Assembly (NCBI GenBank): GCA_019358855.1
Contig: JAHHII010000002.1
Coordinates: forward strand, 374,690 to 438,689
Direction: 5' to 3'
DNA: 64,000 nucleotides
Source of the DNA: Timaviella obliquedivisa GSE-PSE-MK23-08B
GTDB taxonomy: Bacteria > Cyanobacteriota > Cyanobacteriia > Elainellales > Elainellaceae
In this document: positions 6,435 to 32,663 of the stretch, piece after piece
Layout: each line of letters starts with the position of its first letter
Numbering within the stretch: position 1 is the first letter of the stretch
Translations under genes and position numbers: made by a program
The notes under the pieces: model-generated
Told to the model about the DNA's origin: nothing
What the model saw: only the letters and a program-made list of their open reading frames with translations
Database searches by the model: none

Positions 6435-6435
6435 C

Positions 6436-12380: not shown

Positions 12381-12409
12381 TTTCATCGTCCTCTTATTCC
12401 CTATTTGCC

Positions 12410-14452: not shown

Positions 14453-14497
14453 CCTACAACTCATCAACATACCCTCGTCAGATCCCCCTGAATCCTT

Positions 14498-15328
14498 ATG
14501 CAAACATACTCAGAAACTGTGATTCATTCTCCGACTACCGTGCCCCAACCCTTCCTAGACATCAACAACGTCTCTAAGGTTTACGACACCCCCAAAGGCG
14601 CTTATACCGTCTTAGATGGCATCAGTCTCACGGTCGATGAAGGCGAATTCGTCTGCGTCATTGGTCACTCGGGTTGCGGTAAATCAACGTTGCTCGACAT
14701 GGTTTCTGGATTTCGTCAACCTTCTAGCGGCGAAGTCAGGCTGAAGGGAGAGGTGATTGAGCGCCCAGGGCCCGATCGCATGGTAGTGTTTCAAAACTAC
14801 TGTTTGCTGCCCTGGAAAACCGTGTTTGAGAATGTGTATTTGGCAGTTAAAGCTGTTCATCCTGATAAGTCGAAAGCAGAGAAAACTGAGCTAGTTCACA
14901 AGCACTTAGCCATGGTGGGACTGGAGGAAGCGGCAAATAAAAAGCCGGGTCAAATTTCGGGTGGGATGAAGCAGCGAGTAGCGATCGCCCGGGCTTTATC
15001 CACCTATCCAGAGGTATTAGTTTTGGATGAACCGTTCGGTGCCCTGGATGCCATCACCAAAGAAGAACTGCAAGAAGAACTATTGCAAATTTGGACTGAT
15101 CATCGCGTCACTATCATGATGATTACCCACGACATTGATGAGGCATTATTTCTTGCCGATCGCGTCGTCATGATGACCAACGGCCCTAGCGCAAAAATTG
15201 GTGAAATCATGACGGTTCCTTTTGCTCGACCTCGTAATCGCAGTCAAATTATGGATGACCCACGCTACTACGCACTCCGCAACCAGGCGCTAGACTTCTT
15301 GTTCAGCCGCTATGCCCATAGCGAGTAG
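14498..15328 (+). CDS. nrtD: Nitrate ABC transporter ATPase NrtD
   Basis: This 276-residue ABC ATPase is the second nucleotide-binding subunit of the nitrate/nitrite importer and pairs with NrtC. Visible motifs are Walker A GHSGCGKS, signature ISGGMKQR, Walker B LVLDEPFGALD and the switch histidine in MITHDIDEAL. It is strongly similar to the ATPase half of NrtC (shared GPDRMVVFQNY). It starts 46 bp after nrtC. A 220-bp gap without a recognisable gene separates it from narB. No C-terminal regulatory domain is present, as expected for NrtD. Confidence 0.97.
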   Translation: MQTYSETVIHSPTTVPQPFLDINNVSKVYDTPKGAYTVLDGISLTVDEGEFVCVIGHSGCGKSTLLDMVSGFRQPSSGEVRLKGEVIERPGPDRMVVFQNYCLLPWKTVFENVYLAVKAVHPDKSKAEKTELVHKHLAMVGLEEAANKKPGQISGGMKQRVAIARALSTYPEVLVLDEPFGALDAITKEELQEELLQIWTDHRVTIMMITHDIDEALFLADRVVMMTNGPSAKIGEIMTVPFARPRNRSQIMDDPRYYALRNQALDFLFSRYAHSE

Positions 15329-15548
15329 TTCCTCTTCGCTTTTCTGCTCAATAATTTTGAGTCCTAAGTTCAATTCCTGTGAATGCAATAACTGCGTGTA
15401 ATCAGGTCATGCAGTTGTTGCATTCATTTTGGGCGGTTTCCGGTGGGCTGAGCAGGTTTAGTAGCAAAAGTAGCGGATATTGCCCATTTTTCTCGCTATG
15501 GTGCAGATGTGATCGCAGAATATATTCTCAGGGTTGGAGGCAACTCCG

Positions 15549-17762
15549 ATGGCAACAGATTCAGTTAAAACATTATGTCCTTATTGTGGGGTAGGCTGCG
15601 GGTTGGAAGTGTTGCCGCCAGCCCAGCCCGGTAAACCGGTAAGCCGAGACAGTGAAGGTAACCCCATGTGGCAGGTGCGGGGCGATCGCTCCCATCCCTC
15701 CAGTGAAGGCATGGTCTGCGTTAAAGGCGCAACCATTACCGAATCACTGAATAAAGATCGGCTCCAATACCCCATGATGCGCGAGTCGTTAGACCAACCT
15801 TTTCGGCGGGTTAGCTGGGATGAAGCCCTGAATCGCATCGTCAGCCATATTCAGGCTGTACGGCACACCCATGGTGCAGATGCGCTTTGCATGTACGGTT
15901 CTGGGCAGTTTCAAACCGAAGATTACTACCTTGCACAAAAGCTAATGAAAGGCTGTTTGGGCACCAATAATTTTGACGCGAACTCTCGCTTGTGCATGTC
16001 TTCCGCCGTGTCCGGTTACATTCAAAGTTTTGGTGCCGATGGTCCCCCTTGCTGTTACGACGACCTGGAAAAAACCGACTGCGCTTTTTTAATAGGGACA
16101 AATACTGCTGACTGTCATCCCATTATTTTTAATCGCTTCGAGAAGTACCACAAAAAAAATCGCAACGTTAAATTAATTGTGGTTGACCCTCGCAAAACGG
16201 CAACCGCCGAAGCCGCTGATTTGCACTTAGCCATTCGTCCTGGTACTGACGTGGATTTGCTCAATGGCATTGGCAATTTGCTCTTACGCTGGGGCTGCTT
16301 CGACCAACAATTCATTGACGCTCACACCACAGGCTTCCGTGAATTTGAAAAAATTGCGAACTTCTATCCACCAGAACTGGTGGCAAAACGCTGCGGTATT
16401 TCGACACGGATGTTGGAAACGGCGGCAGAATATTGGGCAAACGCCAACAATGTCCTGTCAATGTGGTCGATGGGTGTCAACCAATCTTCAGAAGGCACCG
16501 CTAAAGTCTGCTCTTTAATTAATCTCCATTTAATGAGCGGACAAATCGGCAGACCGGGCGCTGGGCCCTTTTCTCTAACCGGACAACCGAATGCCATGGG
16601 TGGACGCGAAACGGGTGGATTGTCTCATCTTTTGCCAGGATATCGCCTGGTCAAAAATCCAGAACATCGCGCTGAAGTGGAAAAATTGTGGGGACTGCAA
16701 GAGGGAGATATTTCACCCGAACCAGGACGAACCGCCTGGGAAATGATCACGGGGCTAGAAACAGGAGCCGTGCAGTTTCTTTGGGTAGCGGCAACTAACC
16801 CTGCCGTCAGTATGCCTGATATCGATCGCACTAAAGCTGCATTAAAGCGATCGCCCCTCACCATTTACCAAGATGCATACTATCCGGCAGAAACCGCTGC
16901 CTACGCCCACATTCTGCTGCCTGCAACGCAGTGGAGCGAAAAAACGGGCGCAATGACCAACTCCGAACGCCGCGTCACCCTTTGTCCGGCGTTCCGTTCT
17001 GCGCCCAGAGAAGCTAAAGCCGACTGGGAAATCTTTGCCGAAGTGGGGCGGCGCTTGGGGTTTGAAAAACAATTTAGCTTCTGGCGATCGGCTGAAGTTT
17101 ACCAAGAGTTTGTGCAAATGACCGCAGGTCGCCCTTGCGACATGACAGGGTTAAGCCACGATCGCCTGCGAATACAAGGGGCGATTCAATGGCCTTGCCC
17201 GCTAGAAGACCCTCAAGAAAAATGGGATATTGCATCGGTCGCCATTGCTTCCAGCCGTTTATACACCGACCTCAAGTTTCATACTCCCGATCAAAAAGCA
17301 CGGTTTGTGGCTTTCCACTCGCGCGGCTTAGCAGAACCCCCCGATGAACGCTATCCGCTGGTATTAACCAACGGACGACTGTACGGGCATTGGCACACCT
17401 TAACCCGCACTGGACGGATTGAAAAACTTCAAAAAATGCACCCCCACCCATTTCTCGAAGTTCATCCTAAAGATGCAAGGGCGCTGGGCATTAAAGACAA
17501 AGATTGGGTCGAGGTGAAATCGCGGCGGGGGAAAGCTCGGTTCCCGGTAAAGCTGACGAAAGCCATTAGTCCAGGGACAGTTTTTGTGCCCATGCACTGG
17601 GGCGAATTGTGGGCAGACCATGCTGAAGCAAATGCGATGACGCACCCAGAATGCTGTCCTATTTCTAAGCAACCGGAGCTTAAAGCTTGTGCTGTCCAAC
17701 TGGTTAAAGTGCAACCTCAAAAGAGTGGCGATCGGGCTGAAAGTTTAACGGCTGTGAGATAA
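15549..17762 (+). CDS. narB: Ferredoxin-dependent assimilatory nitrate reductase
   Basis: This 737-residue molybdoenzyme reduces nitrate to nitrite. It contains an N-terminal [4Fe-4S] cluster motif CPYCGVGC (C10, C13, C17) with the fourth cysteine in GMVCVKG, followed by the bis-MGD molybdopterin oxidoreductase domains and a molydopterin-dinucleotide-binding C-terminal domain ([18 protein letters not shown]). The ATG at 15549 is preceded by GGAGG at 15535-15539, which decides the start over an upstream TTG. NarB completes the pathway nitrate to nitrite (NarB) to ammonium (NirA) encoded by this operon. No diaphorase subunit is present, in keeping with ferredoxin as electron donor. Confidence 0.96.
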
Positions 17763-18896: not shown

Positions 18897-19616
18897 GATA
18901 AAGCGTATACTTCTTCTACTAACTCTGATACAGTACAAACTACCTAACTGACGGCTAAATTGTAGCACCATAGATTCATGACCGAAGCGATTGAGTACGA
19001 TCGTCTCTTGGTAGTGGTTTACTGTGAAAACGTATCGAGAAGGTAACTGAGGGAGCCGAAGTCTAAGTCTGGCAAAAGTAGCGGTGCAGGTGAAAGTGCG
19101 AACACAGGCAGGATCAACGTACAGCGCTGCTATTGGAACATTGTGCAGTGATCCATTAAGCACAAACGTGAGCGTGTAATTGACTGTGTCTGCAACGCAG
19201 GTTCTAACGGACGAATCAGCCAGTCGTAGACCGTTTGTCCCAACTGCTTGCCTTACTGGCTGTGAAAGGTTTTTCCAGGTTTTGTCGCAGTTGGCGATCG
19301 ATGGGGCGAAACTGAGGTGTATTCAACCAGACATTCAAATGGGTTTGAATGTCTGGCAAAGGTTGTTAAATTCTGCTTCAGAGATATGACTAATATCCTC
19401 GTCGTCATCAATTGCGATCAGAGGCGATCGCAACCGCCAACCCTTGTATGCATAGAGAGCCTGATAAAGCTGCCGCCAACGCCCGCAGAGATGACCCAGT
19501 TCTAAACTCCCTAAAATGTTTGTGCGCGACCTTATGACAGGCACAAACACCCGTGTGTCATTAAACGCTAGAGGCGATCGCCCTCTCAAAATGCGATCGC
19601 CATGTTCATTCTCTCC
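18897..19616. other. 720-bp region without a supported gene
   Basis: Neither strand holds a convincing gene. Frames on both strands are short and have no recognised motif. A minus-strand stretch at 19335-19589 could be a gene remnant, since it follows the 3' end of the neighbouring minus-strand gene. A plus-strand stretch near 19050-19182 has a beta-strand-like composition but lacks a start. The only strong structural signal is the perfect hairpin at 19327-19356. Confidence 0.5.
19327..19356. repeat. Perfect 13-bp inverted repeat with 4-nt loop
   Basis: CCAGACATTCAAA (19327-19339) and TTTGAATGTCTGG (19344-19356) are perfect reverse complements around the tetranucleotide TGGG. No T-tract follows on the plus strand. 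It sits downstream of the minus-strand hypothetical gene, so it may end that transcript, or it may be the relic of a small mobile inverted-repeat element. Confidence 0.7.
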
Positions 19617-20597
19617 CTACCCAACTCTCTGCAAACTTGCCTGCTGCTGCCCTTCTAAATACCAAAGAAACAAATAAAGCTCGGACACGCCTAATGCAGA
19701 TCGCGATCGCTTGCCATACCGCTGCAACAAGGTATTTTGAGTCTTCTCGGCTTCCCAGCCCAGCCTGTTAAGCTGAACATCAGTCAGGGCGCGGACAGGG
19801 CTTAAATCGTCAGGCGCGAGATTGGCGATCGCCTTTGCCAATTCTTGCTTGACGGAGGATGCCGTTGCCGGAACCTCATTAACTTGCTTCCAGACCGCTC
19901 TATCGGTGATCCAGTGATAGAACTGACGGCATTTTTCAATGTCATCCAGACGCTTGAGCAGGTGATTAACTCTATCCATCAACGGCATCTCTGAGGGTGG
20001 CACTTGAGCTAAAGGGTCGGGGGGCGTTTCTTCCAGCAGTGCTTCTTCTGGTTTCTCTCGGAAACTGCGCCCTGTAGCGTGTTCCAAATTTGCGATCGCT
20101 CGTTCTAACACATCATCCCAATTTGGTTCACCCTGGCGTTCAACATAAATAGATTTGCCCTCTTGAATCATGCGGCAAAACATCACGCCATCCTCTTCTC
20201 CTGGATGCGGGTTTAAGATGATCGGCTGTTGTAATTGCTGCTGAGTCATGTGCGCAATTGTCCAGACCAAGCTCTTAGCGAAAGATTGTTCTTTGGGCAG
20301 AGTTGACCAGCCGGACTCTAAGACATAAGGGCGATCGCCCTGCACATAAAGCCGGAACTTATCGCACTCACCCTTCTTCTTGCGGGTGACAGACTTAATT
20401 AACAAGCCTTCGAGATAGCAAGTGAGGCGATCGCCTTCAATGGTTCTCGGCACCAGGTCATCGCCAACTTTATCTAAGGTGTACCAAAGCCCACCTTTAG
20501 AACGGTTGCAATAGACGGGCACTCGTTGGCTACCACTACTGAAGCCCAGTTTTGTTTCAAGCAGTAAACGTTCAATGCGATCGAGTTGGGAAGTCAT
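19617..20597 (-). CDS. Hypothetical cyanobacterial protein
   Basis: About 326 residues, family not recognised. The N-terminal half looks like a mixed alpha/beta domain with a conserved-looking FRLYVQGDRPYVLESGW stretch. A Pro/Glu-rich linker (EEALLEETPPDPLAQVPP) joins it to a helical C-terminal half. The ATG at 20597 (MTSQLDRIERLLLE) was chosen. An ATG at 20627 would add ten hydrophobic residues and has a slightly better upstream AGG. It is divergent from the CRISPR-Cas operon, with a 341-bp gap between them. No evidence ties it to CRISPR function. Confidence 0.7.
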   Translation of the reverse strand: MTSQLDRIERLLLETKLGFSSGSQRVPVYCNRSKGGLWYTLDKVGDDLVPRTIEGDRLTCYLEGLLIKSVTRKKKGECDKFRLYVQGDRPYVLESGWSTLPKEQSFAKSLVWTIAHMTQQQLQQPIILNPHPGEEDGVMFCRMIQEGKSIYVERQGEPNWDDVLERAIANLEHATGRSFREKPEEALLEETPPDPLAQVPPSEMPLMDRVNHLLKRLDDIEKCRQFYHWITDRAVWKQVNEVPATASSVKQELAKAIANLAPDDLSPVRALTDVQLNRLGWEAEKTQNTLLQRYGKRSRSALGVSELYLFLWYLEGQQQASLQRVG

Positions 20598-20938
20598 TAG
20601 ATGGCTCAAGATAAGGTTGAGTAGCATACCTAACCCTGTATACCAGAGGGAATGATGAGAGTAGCGGTGATAGTAACGGCATTAATATTAATTTTAGAAC
20701 GTTTTTATCAAGATATCCATTAGCTCTAGGATGCCTATGGATTAGAGAGTTTCAAGCTTTGTAATCTCAATGTTTCTTCGAAGGCAGAATTAATAAAACG
20801 CGCTTTGATTGCTTACTCTACATTGCCCACTTCACATTGCGGAGTAGCTGATTTTGATCACATGAGGATTGATTAGCCATGGGTGCTATTTGATAGTAAT
20901 ATTTCCTAAGCTCTATACTTGCTAACTATGCTTCAAGG
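20598..20938. other. Divergent intergenic region upstream of cas3
   Basis: This 341-bp spacer separates the minus-strand hypothetical gene and cas3. It contains the cas3 promoter candidate at 20890-20919. The rest is AT-rich, with no recognisable gene or repeat. Confidence 0.5.
20890..20919 (+). promoter_or_regulatory. Sigma70-type promoter of the cas operon
   Basis: TTGATA (20890-20895) and TATACT (20914-20919) each differ from the sigma70 consensus at one position and are separated by 18 bp. They lie 20 bp upstream of the first possible cas3 start. Expected transcription start is about 20926. Confidence 0.6.
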
Positions 20939-23161
20939 ATGGAACTCATGACAAAGCCAATATTTTCTGCTCATACACCCAACGAGAGTCAGGAATGGCA
21001 TCCACTCAACGCCCATCTCAAGAAAGTAGCAATCAGAGCCAGATTGTTAGCTGCTAAGTTTCAGGCAGGTGAAGTGGGTTACTATGCAGGACTTTGGCAT
21101 GACTTAGGTAAATATAATTCTGAGTTTCAAGCCTATTTATCACAGTGTGAAGTAGCGTCTCGCTTAGGAGTACCAGCACCGCTCAGCCGAATTCCCCATG
21201 CAATTTATGGTGCAAAGCTAGCAGCAGAAAAGTTTGAGCCGATTACCCAGCTAATCTATGGACATCATGGTGGTTTGCCGCAAGTGACTCATATGCAGAA
21301 CAGGCTGGCGCAAATAAATGCTACTGCTTATCAAGAGATTTTGCAGAACGCTGCGGCTGAAGAGATTAGCTTTGAGGTGTCACCAGAAGCTAGCCAGCAA
21401 TTACTGGCACTGGTTCAAGACGAGTATGGGTATGAACTGTTGCTCAGGCTACTTTTTTCCTGTTTGGTAGATGCTGATTATTTGGATACAGAAACACATT
21501 TTGATTCTGAAACTACAAGACAAAGAGCATCGATCGCCAAGGCAGCAGATCTGTGGAAAGCATTACAAATTAATCAAAATAAATTGCTCAGAGATGTTCA
21601 GAATACGCCTGTTAATCAAGTGCGATCGCAGGTGTACCAAACTTGTTTAGAGGCTGCCGCTCTGGAGCCAGGAGTGTTTCGTTTAGCTGTGCCTACAGGC
21701 GGTGGTAAAACCCGGAGCGGTCTGGCGTTTGCTTTGGCTCATGCAGTAAAACACCATCTCGATCGCGTCATTGTAGCAGTACCTTACACCAGCATTATTG
21801 AACAAACTGTAGATGTTTATCGCGGCATTTTTGGACAAAATGCAGTGCTAGAGCATCACAGTGCTGTGAAGCCGGATGAGGGGAACGAAGAAGATGCGCG
21901 ATCGCGTCAAGCGCAAGCCCGATTGGCGACACAAAATTGGGATGCTCCACTTATTGTCACCACAACAATGCAACTCTTTGAGAGCTTATTTGCTAATCGC
22001 ACAAGTCGTTGCCGTAAGCTTCACAATATTGTTAACAGTGTCATTATTCTAGATGAAGTGCAAACGTTACCTGCTGGGTTACTAAAACCAATTCTCAGCG
22101 TTCTGAAAGAACTGTGTCGGCAGTATCATGTCAGCGTAGTGCTATGTACCGCAACTCAACCCGCATTGGAAGGTGAAACGCCTTATTTAGAGGGATTTGC
22201 TGAGGGAACAGTGCGAGACATTGTACCTGTCAATCTGGCAAAGCATCATTTTACGGCATTGAGCCGAGTGGAATATGCGGTGCCATCGGTAAAGTGGAGT
22301 TGGGCAGATGTCGCACAAGAGGTTCAGCAGCATGAGCAAGCGCTGGTAATTTTGAATACTCGCAAAGATGCGTTGGCTGTGTTAGATGCTATGGATACAG
22401 GTGAGGCAGATGGGGTATTTCATCTATCCACATTGTTGTGTGGTCAACATCGACGTAAAGTGTTACAGCAGGTGCGCGATCGCCTTAATTTTAGTCATCC
22501 TCAGCCTTGTACCCTTGTATCCACACAGGTGGTAGAGGCAGGTGTAGATCTAGATTTTCCAGTAGTATATCGGGCGATCGGGCCGTTAGATCGGATTGTC
22601 CAGGCAGCGGGACGTTGTAATCGGGAAGGGCGCAGACTGGAAAAAGGACAGGTTATTGTGTTTTATCCCCAAGATGGCAAAATGCCACATGGAGAATATC
22701 GCAAAGCCTTTGAGGAAACCTCGATTTTGCTGAATTGTGAAAATCTTGACTGGAATGATCCGAGTATCTTTGAGGATTATTTTCGGCGGCTGTATCAGGG
22801 GTTAAATACGGATGCGCAGGAGGTACAAAAATATCGGGCGGCGTATGATTTTCCAGAGGTGGCAGCGCGTTTTCAGATGATTCCAGATGATACGACAGCC
22901 GTATTGGTGGAATATGATGATCGGGCTGGTGAGATAGTTCAGCAGGTGCGGCGGCGCGGCTTGCGGGCAGGAGATGTGCGATCGCTCCAGCCTTATTTAG
23001 TTAGCTTGCGAAACCGAGACTTTAAGACCACAGAGGAATTGCGGGAGGAGATTGCGCCGGGAATTTGGCTTTGGTTAGGTCATTATGACAGGCGGTTAAA
23101 AGGGATTGCAATTGGGGATGAGGCGATCGTTCGTGATCCGGCGGATTTGATTTGGCAATAA
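20939..23161 (+). CDS. cas3: CRISPR-associated nuclease/helicase Cas3 (type I-C)
   Basis: This 740-residue protein has an N-terminal HD nuclease domain (ending around residue 200, with WHDLGKYN carrying the metal-binding HD pair). A superfamily 2 helicase follows, with Walker A PTGGGKT, motif II DEVQ (the Cas3 variant of DEAD/H) and motif VI-like QAAGRCNREG. Cas3 is recruited by target-bound Cascade, then nicks and unwinds the non-target strand. The length fits type I-C. The start is ambiguous between ATG 20939 and ATG 20948. A 607-bp gap before cas5, unusually long for a type I-C operon, holds the crRNA-like element described separately. Confidence 0.95.
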   Translation: MELMTKPIFSAHTPNESQEWHPLNAHLKKVAIRARLLAAKFQAGEVGYYAGLWHDLGKYNSEFQAYLSQCEVASRLGVPAPLSRIPHAIYGAKLAAEKFEPITQLIYGHHGGLPQVTHMQNRLAQINATAYQEILQNAAAEEISFEVSPEASQQLLALVQDEYGYELLLRLLFSCLVDADYLDTETHFDSETTRQRASIAKAADLWKALQINQNKLLRDVQNTPVNQVRSQVYQTCLEAAALEPGVFRLAVPTGGGKTRSGLAFALAHAVKHHLDRVIVAVPYTSIIEQTVDVYRGIFGQNAVLEHHSAVKPDEGNEEDARSRQAQARLATQNWDAPLIVTTTMQLFESLFANRTSRCRKLHNIVNSVIILDEVQTLPAGLLKPILSVLKELCRQYHVSVVLCTATQPALEGETPYLEGFAEGTVRDIVPVNLAKHHFTALSRVEYAVPSVKWSWADVAQEVQQHEQALVILNTRKDALAVLDAMDTGEADGVFHLSTLLCGQHRRKVLQQVRDRLNFSHPQPCTLVSTQVVEAGVDLDFPVVYRAIGPLDRIVQAAGRCNREGRRLEKGQVIVFYPQDGKMPHGEYRKAFEETSILLNCENLDWNDPSIFEDYFRRLYQGLNTDAQEVQKYRAAYDFPEVAARFQMIPDDTTAVLVEYDDRAGEIVQQVRRRGLRAGDVRSLQPYLVSLRNRDFKTTEELREEIAPGIWLWLGHYDRRLKGIAIGDEAIVRDPADLIWQ

Positions 23162-23235
23162 AATATGCGGGATGGGACGATCCTTAAGCAACTGCTTTAA
23201 CAGATCCCCAATAGTGATAAGGTGAAATCGCATAG

Positions 23236-23297
23236 GCATCTAAGTGTGTTTCGCTTAGATGAGGATTGGAACACGTTCATGATACTGGCTGATAGTA
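23236..23297 (+). ncRNA. Candidate crRNA-like regulatory RNA: degenerate CRISPR repeat plus pseudo-spacer
   Basis: The 37 nt at 23236-23272 end in TGAGGATTGGAAC, identical to the last 13 nt of the array repeat, including the 11-nt 5' tag that Cas5 leaves on type I-C crRNAs. The preceding stem differs completely in sequence (ATCTAAG 23238-23244 with CTTAGAT 23254-23260, extendable by a G-T and a G-C pair to 9 bp) but pairs as well as the CCCAGC/GCTGGG stem of the array repeat. A 25-nt pseudo-spacer follows, ending at a GC-rich hairpin. Its first 17 nt (ACGTTCATGATACTGGC) recur at 23340-23355 behind a TTC. This is the layout of crRNA-like regulators such as CreA and CreR of other type I systems. 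Processing by Cas5 and regulation are inference, and I see no clear promoter for the RNA. Confidence 0.6.
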
Positions 23298-23313
23298 GGG
23301 GGCTTTTGCCCCC
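23298..23313 (+). promoter_or_regulatory. GC-rich hairpin closing the crRNA-like element
   Basis: GGGGGC (23298-23303), TTTT, GCCCCC (23308-23313) form a very stable 6-bp hairpin directly after the pseudo-spacer. Seven A residues follow rather than T residues, so it is not a classical intrinsic terminator in this orientation. It may define the 3' end of the crRNA-like RNA by stalling polymerase or blocking exonucleases. Confidence 0.5.
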
Positions 23314-23336
23314 AAAAAAATAGTAAGTTTGATACT

Positions 23337-23355
23337 TTCACGTTATGATACTGGC
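23337..23355 (+). promoter_or_regulatory. Candidate self-target of the crRNA-like RNA: TTC PAM plus protospacer over a -10 box
   Basis: TTC (23337-23339), the established type I-C PAM, is followed by ACGTTATGATACTGGC (23340-23355). This matches the pseudo-spacer in positions 1-5 and again in 11 further nucleotides, with one nucleotide missing at position 6, the position normally flipped out in type I R-loops. Similarity then ends, so Cas3 cleavage would not be expected. TATGAT (23344-23349) inside the match is a plausible -10 element for the transcript that begins the small reading frame at 23387 and cas5-cas8c-cas7. Cascade bound here would block that promoter. No good -35 element was found. 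Confidence 0.55.
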
Positions 23356-23386
23356 AGCAGCTTAAATTACTGGAGAGGCAAATTCT

Positions 23387-23617
23387 GTGTCTATTGAATC
23401 GAAGAACCAATCAACCTATTTCTTTAGGCAATTACGAGCTTTGCAGAGCAGGGCTGAAGCGCTCCAGCAAGATATTTCTGACATTGAATCATTGGTTAGT
23501 CAAATTGTGACAACTCAAGAAAATCAAATTTGTGAGATGCAAAGCTTGGTGAATCCATATTCTAATTATGGCGAGGCAATATGCAATCAACGTGAGAGTT
23601 TTGGGAATTATGACTAG
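23387..23617 (+). CDS. Small coiled-coil protein between cas3 and cas5 (uncertain)
   Basis: This is a 76-residue frame with a GTG start and GGAG 12-15 nt upstream. Residues ~10-55 are heptad-like and polar (RALQSRAEALQQDISDIESL), suggesting a coiled coil. No family is recognised and it is not a known type I-C subunit. It is the first frame downstream of the putative self-targeted promoter. It could therefore be the gene guarded by the crRNA-like RNA or simply part of the cas5 leader. A second, overlapping frame (23568-23759) has no recognisable features. The function is unknown. Confidence 0.4.
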   Translation: MSIESKNQSTYFFRQLRALQSRAEALQQDISDIESLVSQIVTTQENQICEMQSLVNPYSNYGEAICNQRESFGNYD

Positions 23618-23768
23618 AGGAATCTACGATTTCGTAGATGGTCAGAGTTCATGTTTACTATACGTAGAATTACTACCGACGTTTTTTCAAGCTCTTGAGG
23701 CGATCGCAATAACCTCTGAACCAATATTACGTCTGGGAATGTCGTGTACCCTTGTTTAGAGGATATCA

Positions 23769-24440
23769 ATGAGTCCACCGTTAATGGTGAAAGTTTGGGC
23801 TGACTACGCTTGCTTCACCCGTCCAGAATTTGGGGCAGAGCGCGTGAGTTATCCGGTCATGACTCCGAGCGCAGCAAAAGGCGTTTTGGAAGCAGTGTTT
23901 TGGAAGCCAGAATTTTGTTGGAAGGTACGAGAAATTGAGGTGCTGAAGCCGATTCAGCATTTTTCGATTGTGCGGAACGAGATTAATAGTTGGCAAAGTC
24001 CAAGTTCTGCTAAGAGCGAAAACTATCGCTATTTTGCGGATGACGATCGCGCTCAACGCCATACGTTAGGATTACGTGATGTGGCATATCTAATTAAAGC
24101 TGATGTTGAACTCAAAGCTCACGCCAACGAGAACGAGGCGAAATATCGAGATCAATTTCGGCGGCGAATCAAAAAAGGGCAGTGTCACCATCAGCCCTAT
24201 TTAGGAACACGCGAGTTCAGCGCTTTCTTCGGCGAACCCGAACCGGATGATCATCCCATTTCCTACAGCGATGAGTTGGGCTTGATGCTGCTAGACGTAG
24301 AATTTACGGTCACTACTGATTCACCAACACTAGAATATTTTACTCACGATGAATCAGGTGCAAGAGTGACCAAGGGCAAAGCTCAGCCCAAGTTTTTTCG
24401 AGCACGGTTGGACAATGGTGTATTAAGTGTGCCGACATGA
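23769..24440 (+). CDS. cas5: Type I-C CRISPR-associated protein Cas5 (Cas5c/Cas5d)
   Basis: This 223-residue RAMP protein begins with the family-typical MVKVWADYACFTRPEF. It contains VSYPVMTPSAAKGVLEAVFWKP, the glycine-containing stretch characteristic of Cas5d. In type I-C this subunit replaces Cas6: it cleaves pre-crRNA at the base of the repeat stem and then holds the 11-nt 5' tag in Cascade. No cas6 is present in the window, in keeping with this. It overlaps cas8c by 4 bp (ATGA). The GAGG 8 bases before the ATG supports the start. Confidence 0.94.
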   Translation: MSPPLMVKVWADYACFTRPEFGAERVSYPVMTPSAAKGVLEAVFWKPEFCWKVREIEVLKPIQHFSIVRNEINSWQSPSSAKSENYRYFADDDRAQRHTLGLRDVAYLIKADVELKAHANENEAKYRDQFRRRIKKGQCHHQPYLGTREFSAFFGEPEPDDHPISYSDELGLMLLDVEFTVTTDSPTLEYFTHDESGARVTKGKAQPKFFRARLDNGVLSVPT

Positions 24441-26179
24441 TTCTTTCTAAACTCAAAGATTACGCTGAAAATCGCATGAGTTTGCCGCCGACCATGTATG
24501 GCGAAACAAAGGTGGCATGGTGGATTAGCTTGACCGAAGCAGGTAATTATGAGGGCATTGTCTGCCTCAAAACGAAAGAAGCCAAGCGAGGGACACCGAC
24601 CATTGCACCGCACATTGGGCGGACGGTTGGCGTAAAGCCTAAGCTTTTGGCAGATACGGGCGAGTATGTTTTGGGGATTGGACGAGCAACGTCTAAGCCT
24701 GAACGCGTGGTGGAATGTCACGAGCAATTTAAGCAATTGCTGCAAACTTGCGTTGATGTGACTCAAGAACCTAGCGTTCAAGCTGTTTTACGATTTCTCA
24801 ATTCTGATGAATTGGAGCCAGTTAAAGCAGAATTACTGAAGCACAAAGATTTTGATCCTAGTGAAGTGGTGACCTTCCGGGTAGGGGCGATTATTCCGGC
24901 TGCTGCTGACTACAGGCTAAAACGGGTGGAGGAGTTTTGGGGGAAATACACGGCGAGTGACAGTGGAGACGAATCCGGGGGCAAAAATCCGATCATGACT
25001 TGCTTGGTTACGGGTGAGGAATGCGTGGTTGAAGCCCGATTGCCGTTTCTGGTGAAAGGTTTAATTGGGGGGCAACCTTCTGGAACGGCTTTGGTTTCAG
25101 CGAACTCTGCCCCCTTTATGTCTTATGGCTTGCAGAATTCACTGACTTCTCCGATCTCTCGTGATGCGGCAGAAAAGTTTGCTAAAGCGTTAAATGGGTT
25201 GATTAGTGATCCACAGTCGCGGATTTATATTGGCTCAACTGCTTACGTTTTCTGGACTAGAGAGAAGACGGCGTTTAGCCCACTAGCTTATTTAAGTCAG
25301 CCTAAAGCTGAAGAAGTAGAAGCCTTGTTCAAGTCACCATTCAACGCTCAACAGTCTTTGAGCTTAAATGACGAGAAAGTTAACAAGTTCTATGCGTTGG
25401 CACTCACTGCTAGTAACGCGAGAGCAGTAGTAAGAGATTGGCTAGAAACAACGGTTCCTAATGTTCAGGAAAACCTGCATCGATGGTTTCAATATCAACA
25501 GTTAGTTGATGCCTATGGTGCAGAGTCGCGTCCGTTCAGCGTTTATACTTTGGCGGCTAGTGTCTACCGAGATGCTTCTAAGGAAATGCAGGCTTCTGCA
25601 CCGATGGCGTTGATTCGTTGTGCTTTGCATGGCGATCGCCTCCCTGATGATTTGCTCATGAAATTGATTCGCCGTAACCGGGTCGATGAACAGAAAATTA
25701 ACTATCCGCGTGCAGTGTTGCTGAAGCTGATTTTTTCAAGTGATTTAAAACGAAGAGACATGATGACGAATATGGAACAGTTAAATCCCAATCCTAATTT
25801 ACAGGGGAATGACTTAGCAGCTTACTCTTGTGGGCGATTGTTAGCAGTACTGGAAGCGATTCAGCGATCGGCGATCGGATCGGTCAATGCATCGTTGACC
25901 GATCGCTACTATGGGGCAGCATCTAGCACGCCCAGCGTTGCCTTTCCGCCGCTGCTACGAGGCGCAAGGGCACACTTTTCTAAGCTGCGGAAAACTACAC
26001 CCGGAACTTGCAAAGCTCTGGAAGAGAGAGTTGAAGACATTACGCTGAGATTGCCCATGTTCCCAAAGACGCTGAATTTGCAGCAGCAGGGGCTATTTGG
26101 GTTGGGGTATTACCACCAACGAGCGGGCGATCGTGCAGCGGCAAAAGCCAAAGCTGAAGCGACTAAAGCTGAAAAATAG
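24437..26179 (+). CDS. cas8c: Type I-C CRISPR-associated protein Cas8c (Csd1)
   Basis: This 580-residue protein is the large subunit of type I-C Cascade, which recognises the PAM and recruits Cas3. Family-typical stretches are LSKLKDYAENRMSLPP at the N-terminus, CLVTGEECVVEARLPFLVKG, and NSAPFMSYGLQNSLTSPIS. In type I-C an internal start within cas8c supplies the small subunit Cas11. The C-terminal ~130 residues here are helical and consistent with that, but I could not identify the internal start. The C-terminus is Ala/Lys-rich (AKAKAEATKAEK). It lies between cas5 and cas7. Confidence 0.95.
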   Translation: MILSKLKDYAENRMSLPPTMYGETKVAWWISLTEAGNYEGIVCLKTKEAKRGTPTIAPHIGRTVGVKPKLLADTGEYVLGIGRATSKPERVVECHEQFKQLLQTCVDVTQEPSVQAVLRFLNSDELEPVKAELLKHKDFDPSEVVTFRVGAIIPAAADYRLKRVEEFWGKYTASDSGDESGGKNPIMTCLVTGEECVVEARLPFLVKGLIGGQPSGTALVSANSAPFMSYGLQNSLTSPISRDAAEKFAKALNGLISDPQSRIYIGSTAYVFWTREKTAFSPLAYLSQPKAEEVEALFKSPFNAQQSLSLNDEKVNKFYALALTASNARAVVRDWLETTVPNVQENLHRWFQYQQLVDAYGAESRPFSVYTLAASVYRDASKEMQASAPMALIRCALHGDRLPDDLLMKLIRRNRVDEQKINYPRAVLLKLIFSSDLKRRDMMTNMEQLNPNPNLQGNDLAAYSCGRLLAVLEAIQRSAIGSVNASLTDRYYGAASSTPSVAFPPLLRGARAHFSKLRKTTPGTCKALEERVEDITLRLPMFPKTLNLQQQGLFGLGYYHQRAGDRAAAKAKAEATKAEK

Positions 26180-26230
26180 CGGCAAGGTTATTCTCATTTT
26201 TGTTTCAAACTCATCCGTAAGATATTCCTC

Positions 26231-27367
26231 ATGACTCACCATCTCAATCCCAGCTACCGTCACGATTTTGTTCTTTTGTTTGATGTTATCGATGGTAATC
26301 CCAACGGTGATCCCGATGGTGGCAACATGCCTCGTACCGATGTCGAAACCTCTCAAGGTTTAGTGACGGATGTTTCTCTCAAACGCAAGGTGCGGAATTA
26401 CATTGCAACCTATGCCGAATATGAGGCGGCTGAGGGAGAAAAAGAACGGTTGAAAATCTTTGTGGAACATCATGGTGTTTTGAATGACCAAATCCGTCGG
26501 GCTTATGTGGCGGAGGGTATTGCGATCGGAAAGTCTGCTAAAGAAAAAGTAGACGATAAAGTTCTGGCAGCGTTGCGGGAAGTGCAGCCCTATCTACCGC
26601 CTGCGTTTAAGTTTGTGGATAACGATGAAGAATCGGGTGAGGTAGATGCAACGCTGGAATACAGTGGTGAACTTTCAGAAGATGAGCTGAAAGTTTTCTA
26701 TGAACTGGATACGGTTGCAGAATTGTTCACCCAAACTAAGGCACTGAGCAAGTTTATTAAAGACTTGGTGAAAAAAGCGGGTAAGCCCGACAAAAATCGT
26801 GCCAATGCTGAAAAGGCGAAAAAGTGGATGTGTGCCAACTTCTATGATGTGCGGATGTTTGGGGCGGTAATGTCTACAGGGCTGAATGCGGGACAGGTTC
26901 GGGGCGCAATGCAGCTAACGTTTGCGCGATCGCTTGATCCGGTGCAGCCAGTTGATTTGGCGGTGACTCGTGTTGCAGTAACCGATGCGAAAGATCGAGA
27001 AAAGCTGCAAACCATTGGGCGTAAGACTTTAATCCCTTATGGCTTGTACAAAGGTTACGGCTTTTATTCGCCGTGCTTAGCTGATCAAACGGGTGTAACC
27101 GCTAAAGATCTCGAACTGTTCTGGGATGCGCTGGTCAAAATGTGGGAGTTCGATCGCTCCGCCAGCCGGGGAATGATGGCTCCGCGTGGGCTATATGTGT
27201 TTAGTCATGAGTCGAAACTGGGCAATGCTCCGGCGCACAAATTGTTTGAGCGAATTGCTGTAGCGTTAAATCATGAAGGCACGGTTCCTCGTCAGTTTGG
27301 AGATTATGGGGTGACGATTGATGATGTCAATCTGCCTAGCGGTGTGCGTCTGACGCAGTTGGTGTAA
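26231..27367 (+). CDS. cas7: Type I-C CRISPR-associated protein Cas7 (Csd2)
   Basis: This is a 378-residue Cas7/Csd2 protein, the backbone subunit that polymerises along the crRNA spacer. Motifs include FVLLFDVIDGNPNGDPD near the N-terminus and YDVRMFGAVMSTGLNAGQVRGA in the centre. At 378 residues it is longer than typical Csd2 proteins, with a lysine/glutamate-rich insertion around residues 90-195. It starts 51 bp after cas8c. The C-terminus is followed by a short gap and a DUF29 gene rather than directly by cas4. Confidence 0.95.
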   Translation: MTHHLNPSYRHDFVLLFDVIDGNPNGDPDGGNMPRTDVETSQGLVTDVSLKRKVRNYIATYAEYEAAEGEKERLKIFVEHHGVLNDQIRRAYVAEGIAIGKSAKEKVDDKVLAALREVQPYLPPAFKFVDNDEESGEVDATLEYSGELSEDELKVFYELDTVAELFTQTKALSKFIKDLVKKAGKPDKNRANAEKAKKWMCANFYDVRMFGAVMSTGLNAGQVRGAMQLTFARSLDPVQPVDLAVTRVAVTDAKDREKLQTIGRKTLIPYGLYKGYGFYSPCLADQTGVTAKDLELFWDALVKMWEFDRSASRGMMAPRGLYVFSHESKLGNAPAHKLFERIAVALNHEGTVPRQFGDYGVTIDDVNLPSGVRLTQLV

Positions 27368-27407
27368 GCAGTATGATGGAGGCAGTTGTCGTCTGGGAGA
27401 TTGAGCC

Positions 27408-27887
27408 ATGTTAGAGCGATCGCTCTCTGAAGTTGAAGCAACTGATTTGTATGAGCAAGACTTCTTCCTATGGACACAGCAGATGGCGACTGCCCTGCGA
27501 GAAGGGCGATTCGATCAGCTTGATATAGAAAACTTGGCGGAGGAAATTGAGAGTGTGGGGCGATCGGAAAAACGTGAGTTGGCTAGCCGTTTACGAGTGT
27601 TGCTGATTCATCTACTGAAATGGCAGTTTCAGTCTGAGCGCCGCAGCCATAGCTGGCAATCGACGATTACCGAACAACGCATTCAGCTTGAGTTGGTTCT
27701 GGAAGATAGCCCCAGTCTCAAAGGACTCGTTCCAGATCTGCTTGAGGGAGCCTATCAACAAGCTCGTGTAAAAGCAGCGGATGAAACCCAACTGGCGATC
27801 GCTACTTTTCCTGAACAGTGCCCCTATGCTTTGGTAGATGTGCTGCGTTCAGATTTTTGGATTGATGCTCCCGATGTTGCCCAATAA
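27408..27887 (+). CDS. DUF29 family protein inserted in the cas operon
   Basis: This 159-residue protein carries the DUF29 signature (LYEQDFFLWTQQMATALREGRFDQLDIENLAEEIESVGRSEKREL) and a helical RLRVLLIHLLKWQFQ stretch. DUF29 proteins are abundant and widely scattered in cyanobacteria, and their function is unknown. The gene lies on the same strand with 40 bp before it and 14 bp between it and cas4, so it is probably cotranscribed with the adaptation genes. No standard type I-C operon has this gene. It may be a passenger or an accessory factor. Confidence 0.85.
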   Translation: MLERSLSEVEATDLYEQDFFLWTQQMATALREGRFDQLDIENLAEEIESVGRSEKRELASRLRVLLIHLLKWQFQSERRSHSWQSTITEQRIQLELVLEDSPSLKGLVPDLLEGAYQQARVKAADETQLAIATFPEQCPYALVDVLRSDFWIDAPDVAQ

Positions 27888-27901
27888 CGGCTAAATAATT
27901 T

Positions 27902-28531
27902 ATGGCTTTCGATGAGATGGAGTATGTGATGCTGAGTGCACTTCAGCATTTTGTGTTTTGTCCTCGGCAATGTGCATTGATTCATATTGAACAATCTTGG
28001 ACAGAAAATATTTATACGCTGCGAGGATTGCGGGTGCATGAGAAGGTTCATACGCCGGGGGATGAGGCGATCGAGGAGGGCATACGTGTGGAGCGATCGC
28101 TACCACTCTACTCTCACAAGCTAGGTCTGAAAGGGATTTCGGATGTGGTGGAGTTTTCCCCAGACGGTAGACCTTATCCGGTGGAGTATAAGGCGGGTTC
28201 CAAAAAGGGACGGGATGCCGATGATGTCCAGCTTTGCGCCCAGGCGCTGTGTTTAGAAGAAATGATGGGCTGCGAAATTCCTGCTGGGGCAATTTTTCAT
28301 CACGGATCACGGCGGCGGCGGGAGGTGCAGTTTGAGCTAGCGCTGCGGCAGTTGACGTTGCAAACGATTTTAGACACGCGCGCGATGCTGCAAGCGCAAC
28401 AATTACCGCCGCCTGTGAATGATCCGCGTTGTGAAGATTGTTCGTTAATTGAAACCTGTATGCCAGAGGCGGTGAAGCAGTTTGAGTCTTCTGCTAAACG
28501 GCAACGTTTATTTGAGGTGACTGAGGAATGA
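27902..28531 (+). CDS. cas4: CRISPR-associated exonuclease Cas4 (type I-C)
   Basis: This 209-residue RecB-like nuclease trims prespacers and selects PAM-containing ends during adaptation. Cysteines that would ligate an iron-sulfur cluster appear near the N-terminus (FCPRQCALIH) and at the C-terminus (CEDCSLIETC). The nuclease core includes GISDVVEF and YPVEYKAGSKKG. Cas4 normally works with the Cas1-Cas2 integrase encoded immediately downstream. Its last 4 bp overlap the cas1 start (ATGA). Confidence 0.94.
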   Translation: MAFDEMEYVMLSALQHFVFCPRQCALIHIEQSWTENIYTLRGLRVHEKVHTPGDEAIEEGIRVERSLPLYSHKLGLKGISDVVEFSPDGRPYPVEYKAGSKKGRDADDVQLCAQALCLEEMMGCEIPAGAIFHHGSRRRREVQFELALRQLTLQTILDTRAMLQAQQLPPPVNDPRCEDCSLIETCMPEAVKQFESSAKRQRLFEVTEE

Positions 28532-29562
28532 AGCAGATTTTAAATACGCTGTATGTGCAAACTCAAGGTTCATATCTGCGGCTTGATCATGAGACATTGA
28601 AGGTGGAAGTTGAGAAGGAAATGAAGTTCCAAATTCCGTTGCATCATTTGGGTGGAATTGTGACATTTGGTAATGTGCTGATGAGTCCATTTTTGATTCA
28701 TAAGTGCGCAGTAGATGGGCGAAATGTGGTGTGGTTGACAGCGTATGGAAAGTTTAAGGGGCGGCTGGTAGGAGCGACGACGGGGAACGTGTTACTACGG
28801 CGATCGCAGCATGAAACGGTGAGTGATGCAGAGAAGGCGTTGGCGATCGCGCGGTGTATGGTGGCGGGAAAGCTACAAAATGCGCGAAATGTGGTGATGC
28901 GATCGGCGAGGGAGGCAAAGGGGGAGGCAGATCAGTCGATGCTGAAGCTGGCGGCGCAAGTCCAAGCGGAGGGGATTCGCAGTGCAGAAACGGCAGCGGA
29001 TTTGGATAAATTGCGGGGGGTAGAAGGTTATGCAGCACGGGCTTATTTTGGTAGTTTTACCGCGATGATCCGGCAGAACCGAGAGGCGTTTGAGTTTGTG
29101 GAGCGATCGAAGCATCCGCCGCTTGATCCAATTAATGCGCTGTTGTCATTTACCTATACCTTATTGACAAGCGATTGTGTGTCGGCTTGTGAAAGCGTGG
29201 GGTTAGATCCGCAAATGGGTTTTTTACATGCGGTGCGTCCAGGAAAGCCTTCGCTGGCGCTGGATTTGATGGAGGAGTTGCGATCGTTGATGGCAGATCG
29301 ATTAGTGTTGACATTAATTAATCGGGGGCAGATTACGCCGGATGATTTTACAGAGCGTCCGGGTGGAGCGATTTCTTTAAGCGAGGAGGGGCGCAAAACA
29401 CTGCTGGCGGCGTATCAGAAGCGCAAACAGGAGGAGATGATGCATCCGATTGTAGGGCATCGGATGCCGTTAGGTTTGGTGCCCCATGTGCAGGCGCGTC
29501 TACTGGCAAGACATCTACGGGGAGACGTACCAAGTTATCAGCCATTTATTTTACGGGCTTGA
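28528..29562 (+). CDS. cas1: CRISPR-associated integrase Cas1 (type I-C)
   Basis: This 344-residue Cas1 is the catalytic subunit of the spacer integrase. Family metal ligands are visible: the glutamate in LRGVEGYAARAYF, the histidine in GFLHAVRPGKPSLALDL and the aspartate a few residues later. The N-terminal beta domain begins MKQILNTLYVQTQGSYLRLD, as in type I-C Cas1. It overlaps cas4 by 4 bp and is followed by cas2 after 3 bp. The three adaptation genes form one translationally coupled block next to the array. Confidence 0.96.
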   Translation: MKQILNTLYVQTQGSYLRLDHETLKVEVEKEMKFQIPLHHLGGIVTFGNVLMSPFLIHKCAVDGRNVVWLTAYGKFKGRLVGATTGNVLLRRSQHETVSDAEKALAIARCMVAGKLQNARNVVMRSAREAKGEADQSMLKLAAQVQAEGIRSAETAADLDKLRGVEGYAARAYFGSFTAMIRQNREAFEFVERSKHPPLDPINALLSFTYTLLTSDCVSACESVGLDPQMGFLHAVRPGKPSLALDLMEELRSLMADRLVLTLINRGQITPDDFTERPGGAISLSEEGRKTLLAAYQKRKQEEMMHPIVGHRMPLGLVPHVQARLLARHLRGDVPSYQPFILRA

Positions 29563-29565
29563 GCA

Positions 29566-29856
29566 ATGGATATTTTGGTGTCATACGATGTCAATACGGA
29601 GACGAAGGCAGGGCGAAATCGGTTGCGGAAGGTGGCAACGCTTTGTAAGAACTATGGTCAACGGGTTCAGTTTTCGGTGTTTGAGTGTCGGGTGAATGAG
29701 GCGCAGTATGAGATGTTCCAAGCCCAGTTGGTTCAAGTGATTGATAAGCAAACAGATAGCATTCGGTTTTACCGTTTATTGGCTCCAAGAGAGCGATCGG
29801 TATTGTCGTTTGGGGTAGACAAGTATACAGATTTTGATGAACCCCTGATTTTATAG
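29566..29856 (+). CDS. cas2: CRISPR-associated protein Cas2
   Basis: This 96-residue ferredoxin-fold protein forms the Cas1-Cas2 integration complex. The N-terminal strand MDILVSYDVNTET carries the conserved aspartate, and VATLCKNYGQRVQFSVFEC is the typical Cas2 core. It ends 169 bp before the first CRISPR repeat, so the leader lies directly downstream. Its length and family pattern are normal. Confidence 0.96.
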   Translation: MDILVSYDVNTETKAGRNRLRKVATLCKNYGQRVQFSVFECRVNEAQYEMFQAQLVQVIDKQTDSIRFYRLLAPRERSVLSFGVDKYTDFDEPLIL

Positions 29857-30025
29857 CGCGAACCTATAGCGGGAGTCTTTTTCCCAGGAGGTTCGCGAAG
29901 GCTTATAAGGACTGGATTTGAGTAGTATGGCTGTGTTTTTGAGAGGAGCATATAATGATGATTTTGGTAGGTTCGCGGAGGAATTGGCTGAAATGTTTGA
30001 CCTGTAAGGGTTTAAAATAAACGCT
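29857..30025 (+). promoter_or_regulatory. CRISPR leader
   Basis: These 169 bp lie between cas2 and the first repeat. TATAAT (29951-29956) is a consensus -10, with only a weak -35 at the expected distance, and would start pre-crRNA about 60 nt before the first repeat. Copies of GGTTCGCG followed by AGG or GAGG near 29890 and 29971, and the inverted GCGCGAACC at 29857, form a repeated motif. This could serve integration or RNA structure. The leader position, next to cas2 and upstream of the array, fits type I-C. Confidence 0.75.
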
Positions 30026-32384
30026 ATTGCGCCCAGCTTTCGGGCTGGGTGAGGATTGGAACTTAACCGTTAATAAGAACTACGAGCATATCGTTGTAGA
30101 TTGCGCCCAGCTTTCGGGCTGGGTGAGGATTGGAACTACATAGTCTTCAGGCTTGATCTCTGCAATAACCGCATTGCGCCCAGCTTTCGGGCTGGGTGAG
30201 GATTGGAACTATTAACTGGGTAGACGGTTTACTTATCCCTAACTGATTGCGCCCAGCTTTCGGGCTGGGTGAGGATTGGAACCCTGTCCTATCGGCGGGT
30301 AAAGACTCAGCTATAGTAAATTGCGCCCAGCTTTCGGGCTGGGTGAGGATTGGAACTTTGTGAGCGGGGTTGCCTGATTTTCTAAGTTTTTTAAGATTGC
30401 GCCCAGCTTTCGGGCTGGGTGAGGATTGGAACGCTAGAAGTTGTTCTATCCATAGGTCTACTGAATTGCGCCCAGCTTTCGGGCTGGGTGAGGATTGGAA
30501 CCCTCAACCAGTTACTCCATTCTTACCCCCCTCTAAAATTGCGCCCAGCTTTCGGGCTGGGTGAGGATTGGAACCGATAATGGTGAGCGAAATTTCGACA
30601 ATAATCTATATTGCGCCCAGCTTTCGGGCTGGGTGAGGATTGGAACACGACAAGCTTTCAGCAGTTGAAAAGCTAATGAAAATTGCGCCCAGCTTTCGGG
30701 CTGGGTGAGGATTGGAACCAATCTCCATTAGTTAGCCAAATCGCCAACCGACGATTGCGCCCAGCTTTCGGGCTGGGTGAGGATTGGAACAAAAAGATCA
30801 TAAGCACGGGGTAGATCGGATTTACGATTGCGCCCAGCTTTCGGGCTGGGTGAGGATTGGAACCGTTGATCTCTCGGATGGTTGGACCCTAAACGTTCAT
30901 TGCGCCCAGCTTTCGGGCTGGGTGAGGATTGGAACCGTTTAATGATCCACAAAATCCAGGTTAGGGGTCATTGCGCCCAGCTTTCGGGCTGGGTGAGGAT
31001 TGGAACTCAAGAACGAGATGCTGCGAATGGTGTATACTCGGTTATTGCGCCCAGCTTTCGGGCTGGGTGAGGATTGGAACAAAATGAACGCCTTCGTCAG
31101 TCCGCATTTGACTTTATATTGCGCCCAGCTTTCGGGCTGGGTGAGGATTGGAACACAAGTGAGGCAACCTACTAGCATCGGCACTCCTCCATTGCGCCCA
31201 GCTTTCGGGCTGGGTGAGGATTGGAACCTATGGCTCTGGCAGCCGTGCCAAGCCCGATCGCCATTGCGCCCAGCTTTCGGGCTGGGTGAGGATTGGAACT
31301 ATTGTTACATCAAAATTTGTGCTAACTCGCTGGCAATTGCGCCCAGCTTTCGGGCTGGGTGAGGATTGGAACAATATACAAACAGGCGATCGAATAGAAA
31401 CGATCGATTGCGCCCAGCTTTCGGGCTGGGTGAGGATTGGAACAATATTTCCAGTCCAGCAAACGAAATACTTGTTTATTGCGCCCAGCTTTCGGGCTGG
31501 GTGAGGATTGGAACCTTCCCAACGATCGCCCCTACTGAATCTACTGGGATTGCGCCCAGCTTTCGGGCTGGGTGAGGATTGGAACTAGATGATCGCCCGG
31601 TTGAGTTGCTGCGCGGCGTTATCAATTGCGCCCAGCTTTCGGGCTGGGTGAGGATTGGAACAAGAATTGCTTTTAACTCCTTGTCAGGCTTGATCAAATT
31701 GCGCCCAGCTTTCGGGCTGGGTGAGGATTGGAACCAACTGTTTTCTCAAAATCTCACAAATCTTTGATTGCGCCCAGCTTTCGGGCTGGGTGAGGATTGG
31801 AACCTATCTCTACAAAACGCTGCAAGTTTACGAGGTGGATTGCGCCCAGCTTTCGGGCTGGGTGAGGATTGGAACACATCCGGGCTAAGGGCGATATCAA
31901 GTTTTACTCAATTGCGCCCAGCTTTCGGGCTGGGTGAGGATTGGAACTCTTCAGATTCTGCCTCTAGTATTAGCTCCATGGATATTGCGCCCAGCTTTCG
32001 GGCTGGGTGAGGATTGGAACAATTAATATCGATCGCATCTGTTCGAGGTTTGCGATTGCGCCCAGCTTTCGGGCTGGGTGAGGATTGGAACCACATCGAT
32101 CGCCCCCATTATCGCAGAGCGATCGAAATTGCGCCCAGCTTTCGGGCTGGGTGAGGATTGGAACCCAAAATAGCGATTACCAGCAGATGTAGCATGATCT
32201 ATTGCGCCCAGCTTTCGGGCTGGGTGAGGATTGGAACCATTGGTGGATTTTCATGCTGTCTACCGCTACCACGAATTGCGCCCAGCTTTCGGGCTGGGTG
32301 AGGATTGGAACTAAATAGTATTTAGTTTTTATGTACTCATATCATCAATTGCGCCCAGCTTTCGGGCTGGGTGAGGATTGGAAC
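30026..32384 (+). CRISPR. Type I-C CRISPR array, 33 repeats and 32 spacers
   Basis: A 37-nt repeat starting ATTGCGCCCAGC and ending TGAGGATTGGAAC occurs 33 times, and I see no variation between copies. Spacers are 32-39 nt, mostly 34-37. The repeat forms a CCCAGC/GCTGGG stem with a TTTCGG loop. The 3' end gives the expected 11-nt type I-C crRNA tag. Orientation is set by the leader at 29857-30025. Five spacers contain CGATCG: numbers 17, 19, 21, 28 and 29 (numbering from the leader). Several apparent reading frames across the array are only translations of the repeats. A degenerate terminal repeat follows at 32397-32433. Confidence 0.98.
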
Positions 32385-32396
32385 TTTCGCTGAGGG

Positions 32397-32606: not shown

Positions 32607-32663
32607 ATGGGTGTGAGGGGGTATAGCGAGGTTAAAGTAGACAACCTAACCTCAGTTTGACTA

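Follow-up and report, generated by a model that had tools for sequence, protein, structure and literature searches.

A single decayed CRISPR repeat lying between cas3 and cas5 in the type I-C locus of Timaviella obliquedivisa GSE-PSE-MK23-08B is very probably a built-in regulator and not an accident, because the layout recurs in related genomes although the sequences differ. As judged from the sequences compared here, the element likely specifies a crRNA-like RNA that directs Cascade to repress, without cleavage, a small gene and the promoter of cas5-cas8c-cas7. It was found in a stretch of 64,000 nucleotides, hereafter called the window.

The pseudo-repeat and its target in the window

The cas genes of the window, all on the forward strand and assigned with PADLOC, comprise a type I-C cas3 (20939-23161), cas5c (23769-24440), cas8c (24437-26179) and cas7c (26231-27367); a CRISPR array with 34 tag copies (33 perfect repeats) follows on the same strand at 30026-32433. 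A 159-aa frame at 27408-27887, between cas7 and cas4, is one that we take to be DUF29-like. Between cas3 and cas5, ahead of a small reading frame of 76 aa with a GTG start (23387-23617, forward strand; 151 nt before cas5), stands a lone degenerate repeat, whose parts all lie on the forward strand. As a first-pass annotation of this DNA had claimed, it ends like the array repeat, the last 13 nt (TGAGGATTGGAAC, 23260-23272) being identical, and its stem has been exchanged for a different, fully pairing sequence: the arms CATCTAAG (23237-23244) and CTTAGATG (23254-23261) of the hairpin at 23237-23261 form 8 of 8 pairs and are unlike the array repeat stem. The crRNA tag of type I-C systems is 11 nt long, and the 11 nt after the hairpin (AGGATTGGAAC, 23262-23272) are those of the array repeat, both by direct reading and by genome count; the 5' end of a processed RNA is predicted at 23262.

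The guide, or pseudo-spacer, follows at 23273-23297. Its nt 1-17 (ACGTTCATGATACTGGC, 23273-23289) recur at 23340-23355 as ACGTTATGATACTGGC, which is 1 nt shorter and has no base opposite guide position 6, so that guide nt 6 is left unpaired. This copy is directly preceded by TTC (23337-23339), the type I-C PAM according to the available part of PMC8406640, and contains TATGAT (23344-23349), a possible -10 element. The missing nucleotide, the adjoining TTC and the enclosed TATGAT had all been described in the first-pass annotation and are read directly in the sequence. A second hairpin (GGGGGCTTTTGCCCCC, 23298-23313; GGGGGC and GCCCCC around TTTT) begins 25 nt past the tag according to the fold, and is predicted to form the 3' end of the guide RNA. 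It is followed by an A-run, not a T-run, and a terminator search of 23100-23800 was empty, ruling it out as a canonical terminator. An Rfam scan of 19000-33000 returned only array repeats, below the gathering score, and the pseudo-repeat element was not among them.

The first annotation had also considered the combination of tag, stem, PAM and match hard to obtain by chance, and a chance origin is ruled out by the following counts, to which the recurrence of the element in other loci is added below. The 13-mer TGAGGATTGGAAC has 35 copies across the 4.9-Mb genome; the array accounts for 34, and the one at the element is the sole ectopic tag. With a score of 14, the guide-target match outranks every other position within 40 kb on either strand (runner-up 12), and none of 20,000 random guides was as good at a TTC within 250 nt. 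As a control, 1,353 windows of 600 bases yielded seven TTC-type matches and no GTN-type match; the seven were attributed as a group, not window by window, to the locus L012, since then counted among the elements, and on rescanning the only pairs outside known elements were those of L012 and one within the array of L007, which lies outside the control pool. Both the control scan and the random-guide test disregard guide positions 6 and 12. A gap-tolerant search of both strands, exempting no position and tolerating a single gap at any point of guide nt 1-17, recovered the same eight pairs that are analysed below, that of G612, which needs two gaps, tying for top. The window array gave no match to phages from which a PAM could be read.

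Related elements in other type I-C loci

We compared 25 distinct type I-C loci obtained from cas5c relatives, in which cas3 is co-directional or unrecognisable and the upstream stretch was read; 24 are labelled or placed as cyanobacterial and one (L011) is labelled Deltaproteobacteria. L006 (38% identity) and the contig-end cuts L048/L072 and L069 were left out. Ten of the 25 loci carry elements, eleven in total: one each in the window, G010, G434, G433, G612, G611, G633, G490 and G687, and two in L012. The other 15 have no such element, and cas3 directly adjoins cas5 in most of those read, which leaves no room for one. Among type I-C plasmid records (six of 42 read), cas3 likewise abuts cas5 in four, the Zymomonas record has a 105-nt gap and that of Streptomyces carries an IS there.

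The tag reads AGGATTGRAAY in nine elements and TGGATTGAAAC in L012. It agrees with the array repeats of its own locus in the window, G010, G433, G434, G612, G611 and G490, where several repeats are readable, except that the G490 tag ends in T, unlike its array repeats. Stems are paired up to the tag in all eleven elements despite their differing sequences (arm pairing in nine; folds), the 100% pairing of own arms being so by construction, because the arms were chosen by us. In G434 and G633 four pairs adjoin the tag before a bulge interrupts the stem, and one L012 stem is weak (-2.3 kcal/mol). A second hairpin is present in all eleven folds, starting at guide nt 23-46.

The conserved pairing of tag and TTC-linked match that the first-pass annotation had suggested looking for in related loci was borne out, 10 of the 11 elements having such a match. 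Outside L012, eight of nine elements have one, and for each of these none of 20,000 random guides did equally well; the pseudo-repeat of G434 has no TTC-linked match. By the gap-tolerant search, the TTC-preceded site, 67-154 nt downstream, is the top match in seven of eight elements (G612 tied) and also in G687. Since the guides differ between loci, guide and target change together. L012 (Candidatus Caenarcaniphilales, 1-16645) holds two type I-C operons in tandem; each is accompanied by an ectopic element on the other strand, and both guides have TTC-linked top matches, at 15/15 and 14/15 positions.

Several of these loci show further peculiarities. One L012 element faces a gene, presumably PIN-like, directly before cas5, and the other faces a 48-aa hydrophobic frame and a gene that we take to be NYN-like. 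In Leptolyngbya sp. RL_3_1 (L008, 7100-8001) the pseudo-repeat is retained and a gene pair on the other strand, in our assumption HicB/HicA-like, occupies the place where target and small frame would be; L008 yielded no TTC-linked match. Only remnants are left in G435. Chamaesiphon 336R (G433) has two more solo repeats outside its cas locus (L081, 385-480; L080, reverse complement, 370-450), one degenerate and about 35 nt before a presumably PadR-like gene, the other intact and before another gene, neither with a PAM-linked match within 801 nt. In G611 (L065, reverse complement, near 1290-1340) a second degenerate repeat, CGAGGGTTGAAAC, lies between the small frame and cas5, with no PAM-linked match within 4 kb on either side.

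Discrepancies between guide and target are concentrated at two guide positions. Across the eight pairs they fill 13 of the 16 cells at positions 6 and 12 and 3 of 104 in the rest of positions 1-15 (Fisher p ~3e-12), a limit at position 15 that was set after the data had been seen; over positions 1-17 the other cells show 7 in 120 (p ~8e-11), and without the three gapped loci the counts are 9 of 10 at positions 6 and 12 and 2 of 65 elsewhere. Taken singly, position 6 carries a mismatch or gap in six of the eight pairs and position 12 in seven. A target base is missing in the window (opposite position 6), in G010 (12) and in G612 (6 and 12). That these single-base gaps are partly assembly errors, many loci being draft or metagenome assemblies, is unlikely, because the four gaps in three loci can all be placed at 6 or 12 (one equally at 5). 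The L127 guide and one L012 guide are exceptions without a mismatch at 6 or 12. Class 1 complexes flip out each sixth guide nucleotide (PMC11127173, in part), and according to the available text of PMC8501985 CreA uses a TTC PAM and pairs through positions 1-5 and 7-11, 6 and 12 being dispensable. The window guide pairs as in CreTA, all ten seed positions (1-5 and 7-11) being matched beside a TTC PAM. Through the single-base gaps, a simple rule of how Cascade recognizes its targets becomes measurable.

The eight matched type I-C loci each have a short frame between target and cas5, that of G687 being interrupted by an in-frame stop. The frames fall into at least two families. The window frame has a relative at the same place in G433 (35% identical), where the frame stops 5 nt before cas5, and weaker relatives in two type I-D loci; the frames of G611 and G633 are only weakly similar (E 0.046), too little to establish a third family. 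No Pfam or NCBIfam family scored above cut-off for seven of the small frames and PADLOC returned nothing for five, and by eye one type I-C family and the two type I-D frames resemble small DNA-binding proteins. Family A matches occur in 13 genomes besides that of the window, of which G243 and G247 were taken further; the remaining matches (E 2e-4 to 0.01) may reflect chance similarity between coiled coils. Relatives of family B (L122-L126) were rejected, having weak E-values, an apparent location outside cas loci and none of the scanned repeat motifs in the fetched stretches.

As for promoters, the target of G490 overlaps TTGACC-18-TATAAT, and TATGAT lies in the match or at its end in the window and G611. 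The best promoter begins 42-53 nt past the target start in G010, G612 and G687, making simple occlusion less obvious there. A promoter consensus scan of the window gave 0 sites vs a mean of 2.2 in shuffles, with only a weak -10 in the target; cas5 and the frame at 23387 probably sit behind one shared promoter.

Type I-D loci and type I-C loci with divergent cas3

The same plan was found with GTN PAMs in five of nine type I-D loci, the sample consisting of G243, G247 and seven of 13 plasmid records with cas10d; GTN is the type I-D PAM according to the available part of PMC10212523. Two of the five carry a relative of the window's small frame. These frames, in G243 and G247, were reached with the window frame and its G433 relative as query, share a similar end motif with the 76-aa frame (E 3.8e-7 and 1e-4, covering 36-74 and 44-74 of 76), and stand downstream of cas3d and ahead of cas10d (identified with PADLOC in L106 and, for cas3d, in L107; cas10d of L107 by resemblance to L106). 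In both loci the pseudo-repeat is on the opposite strand, the site matched by the guide lies ahead of the frame and directly follows GTT or GTC, and mismatches within positions 1-15 fall at 6 and 12, or at 6, 7 and 12. The plan is also present in Dolichospermum UHCC 0315A, Anabaena sp. 90 and Picosynechococcus PCC 7117; Stanieria is without it, and in Pseudanabaena, Synechocystis 6803 and Picosynechococcus 7002 cas3 abuts cas10d. GTN precedes the top match in four of the five loci; in Anabaena sp. 90 (L128) the GTC site ranks third when no guide position is exempted, and a second repeat there has no PAM-linked match. In Dolichospermum the guide shows no mismatch ahead of position 17, and the 6/12 pattern is therefore not universal.

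Nine further cas5c loci (L049-L054, L071, L089 and L090) have cas3 on the other strand and stand outside the count of eleven elements. Weaker candidate pairs were obtained by the gap-anywhere search in four: L051 with TTC (reverse complement, 815-850), L053 with GTT (reverse complement, 870-940 and 1480-1500), L054 with GTC (770-840) and L089 with GTT (reverse complement, 1145-1260). A GTN PAM would be unexpected for type I-C. Within 17 nt L053 has a mismatch only at 6, and L054 at 3 and 6; in L051 and L089 the first 11 nt match. Random guides were as good in 0 of 400 trials for L053 and L054, and in one each for L051 and L089. The motif overlaps the cas3 frame in L051, L053 and L054, the candidate target ends at the cas5 start in L053 and L054, and a frame resembling family B by eye follows in L089. 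In L049 and L052 the motif is present with no PAM-linked match, and it is absent from L050, L071 and L090.

Possible function and relation to known regulators

As the likely explanation, we propose that a short RNA is transcribed from 23237-23313 and that Cas5c cuts it at the foot of the pseudo-repeat hairpin, which would leave the normal 11-nt tag, the second hairpin forming its 3' end. This guide RNA would enter the cell's own type I-C Cascade and lead it to 23340-23355, directly after the TTC. That site overlaps what is likely the promoter serving both the 76-aa frame and the cas5-cas8c-cas7 genes that follow. A match of 27 bp was needed for killing by the Xanthomonas type I-C system (PMC8406640, in part); the match of ~15-17 nt is shorter, so binding without cutting is expected, and Cascade, the match being too short for Cas3 cutting, would stay as a repressor. 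Whenever Cascade is scarce, occupied by crRNAs or blocked, the promoter would open and yield more of the small protein and of Cascade. Such a circuit would be a candidate means of self-control for type I-C and I-D systems, and it would account for the gap with small genes between cas3 and the effector genes.

What the repression is for allows two readings, both of them put forward in the first-pass annotation, and each of which we hold tentatively. The guide may mainly silence the small gene, in the manner of a CreTA- or CrePA-like guard, so that loss or inhibition of Cascade lets the small protein or RNA harm or arrest the cell, control of Cascade being secondary; we would entertain this without leaning towards it. 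The presence of a short frame between target and cas5 in all eight matched loci, from at least two families, speaks for it, as do the recurrence of one family in type I-D loci under a guide of its own and the toxin-like genes at this junction elsewhere: those of G434, which we take to be HicBA-like, DUF86/HepT-like and nucleotidyltransferase genes, and the PIN-like and NYN-like genes of L012. The shared small gene is thereby a concrete candidate for a Cascade-guarded factor. The empty family and PADLOC searches, however, and the likeness of one type I-C family and two type I-D frames to small DNA-binding proteins do not favour a toxin-like role. It is also conceivable, short of being our expectation, that the ward is Cascade itself, as in pure CreR-type autoregulation, and that the small frame is a leader or passenger. 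The element is placed ahead of cas5-cas8c-cas7, frame and cas5 are 5 nt apart in G433, the candidate targets of L053 and L054 end at the cas5 start, and CreR targets cas promoters (excerpts of PMC12737573 and PMC13131331); yet a small frame in every matched locus, with one family common to type I-D, exceeds what a passenger would need, and 151 nt separate frame and cas5 in the window.

Readings without a regulatory role fare worse. The element could be a functionless relic of an old self-matching spacer or of a duplicated array stretch, as G434 without a remaining match, the remnants of G435 and a similarity running ~20 nt past the core match in G687 might suggest, but decay would not preserve paired stems, a second hairpin, a PAM and mismatches focused on 6 and 12 across diverged loci, and we consider this improbable. 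A decoy RNA poisoning Cascade like the viral Racrs, which share the form of a solitary repeat unit (PMC10651486, in part), is more improbable still: the element sits within a cas locus, and the guide behind it has a PAM-linked target. Returning to regulation through Cascade, a wider generalization strikes us as possible and rather doubtful: that Cascade tolerates targets without a base opposite a flipped-out guide nucleotide and that gaps at 6 and 12 are regular in self-directed guides, perhaps for stable binding while barring Cas3 recruitment, and that type I-C and I-D systems have independently brought one and the same family of small proteins under the control of a promoter guided by their own Cascade, as a conserved read-out of Cascade availability.

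Shmakov 2023, on CRISPR-derived RNA regulatory elements, reportedly predicted that type I loci hold many solitary repeats and mini-arrays whose targets are the promoters of cas or cargo genes, toxin-antitoxin genes for example, and the elements described here resemble them in being standalone repeats in type I loci aimed at such promoters. Regulators of this crRNA-like kind are already known as CreA, CreR and CrePA (PMC12737573 and PMC13131331, as far as these texts were available). CreR (Liu 2023, as cited in PMC13131331 and PMC12737573) is likewise an RNA from a degenerate repeat in the cas locus with a partial match to its own cas promoter. In the window a crRNA-like RNA from such a repeat is indicated by sequence and fold, and the partial match and PAM are present at a promoter that is predicted. 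CreR is listed in the available excerpts for subtypes I-B, I-E and V-A (PMC13131331) or for type I and V-A (PMC12737573), whereas the present elements belong to I-C and also I-D; it is generally without coupling to a toxin gene. In the window a small gene lies between target and cas5. CrePA similarly places a protein gene behind a Cascade-guided promoter (PMC12737573, in part), but CreP typically has a KilA-N domain and none of the seven small proteins scanned does, with no Pfam family above cut-off. Racrs are solitary repeats on viruses or plasmids that inhibit a host effector, whereas this element lies in a host cas locus with guide and target. Within the partial literature coverage we noticed no paper on cyanobacterial type I-C or I-D cases, nor any on bases missing from the target at 6 and 12.

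With CreA (excerpts of PMC8501985 and PMC9458426) the element shares a degenerated repeat, the TTC PAM, pairing through 1-5 and 7-11 and freedom at 6 and 12. In CreTA the promoter that CreA targets drives an RNA toxin, CreT. The element differs in the single-base target gaps at 6 and 12, in that Cas5c, not Cas6, would process it, and in having one repeat and an unrelated hairpin where CreA usually has two repeats; one or, mostly, two flanking degenerate repeats are described for CreA, one being allowed (PMC9458426, in part). A mini-array of two degenerate repeats occurs in the type I-D loci of Anabaena sp. 90 (L128, 2270-2420) and Dolichospermum (L127, 2865-2950), the type I-C elements being single repeats.
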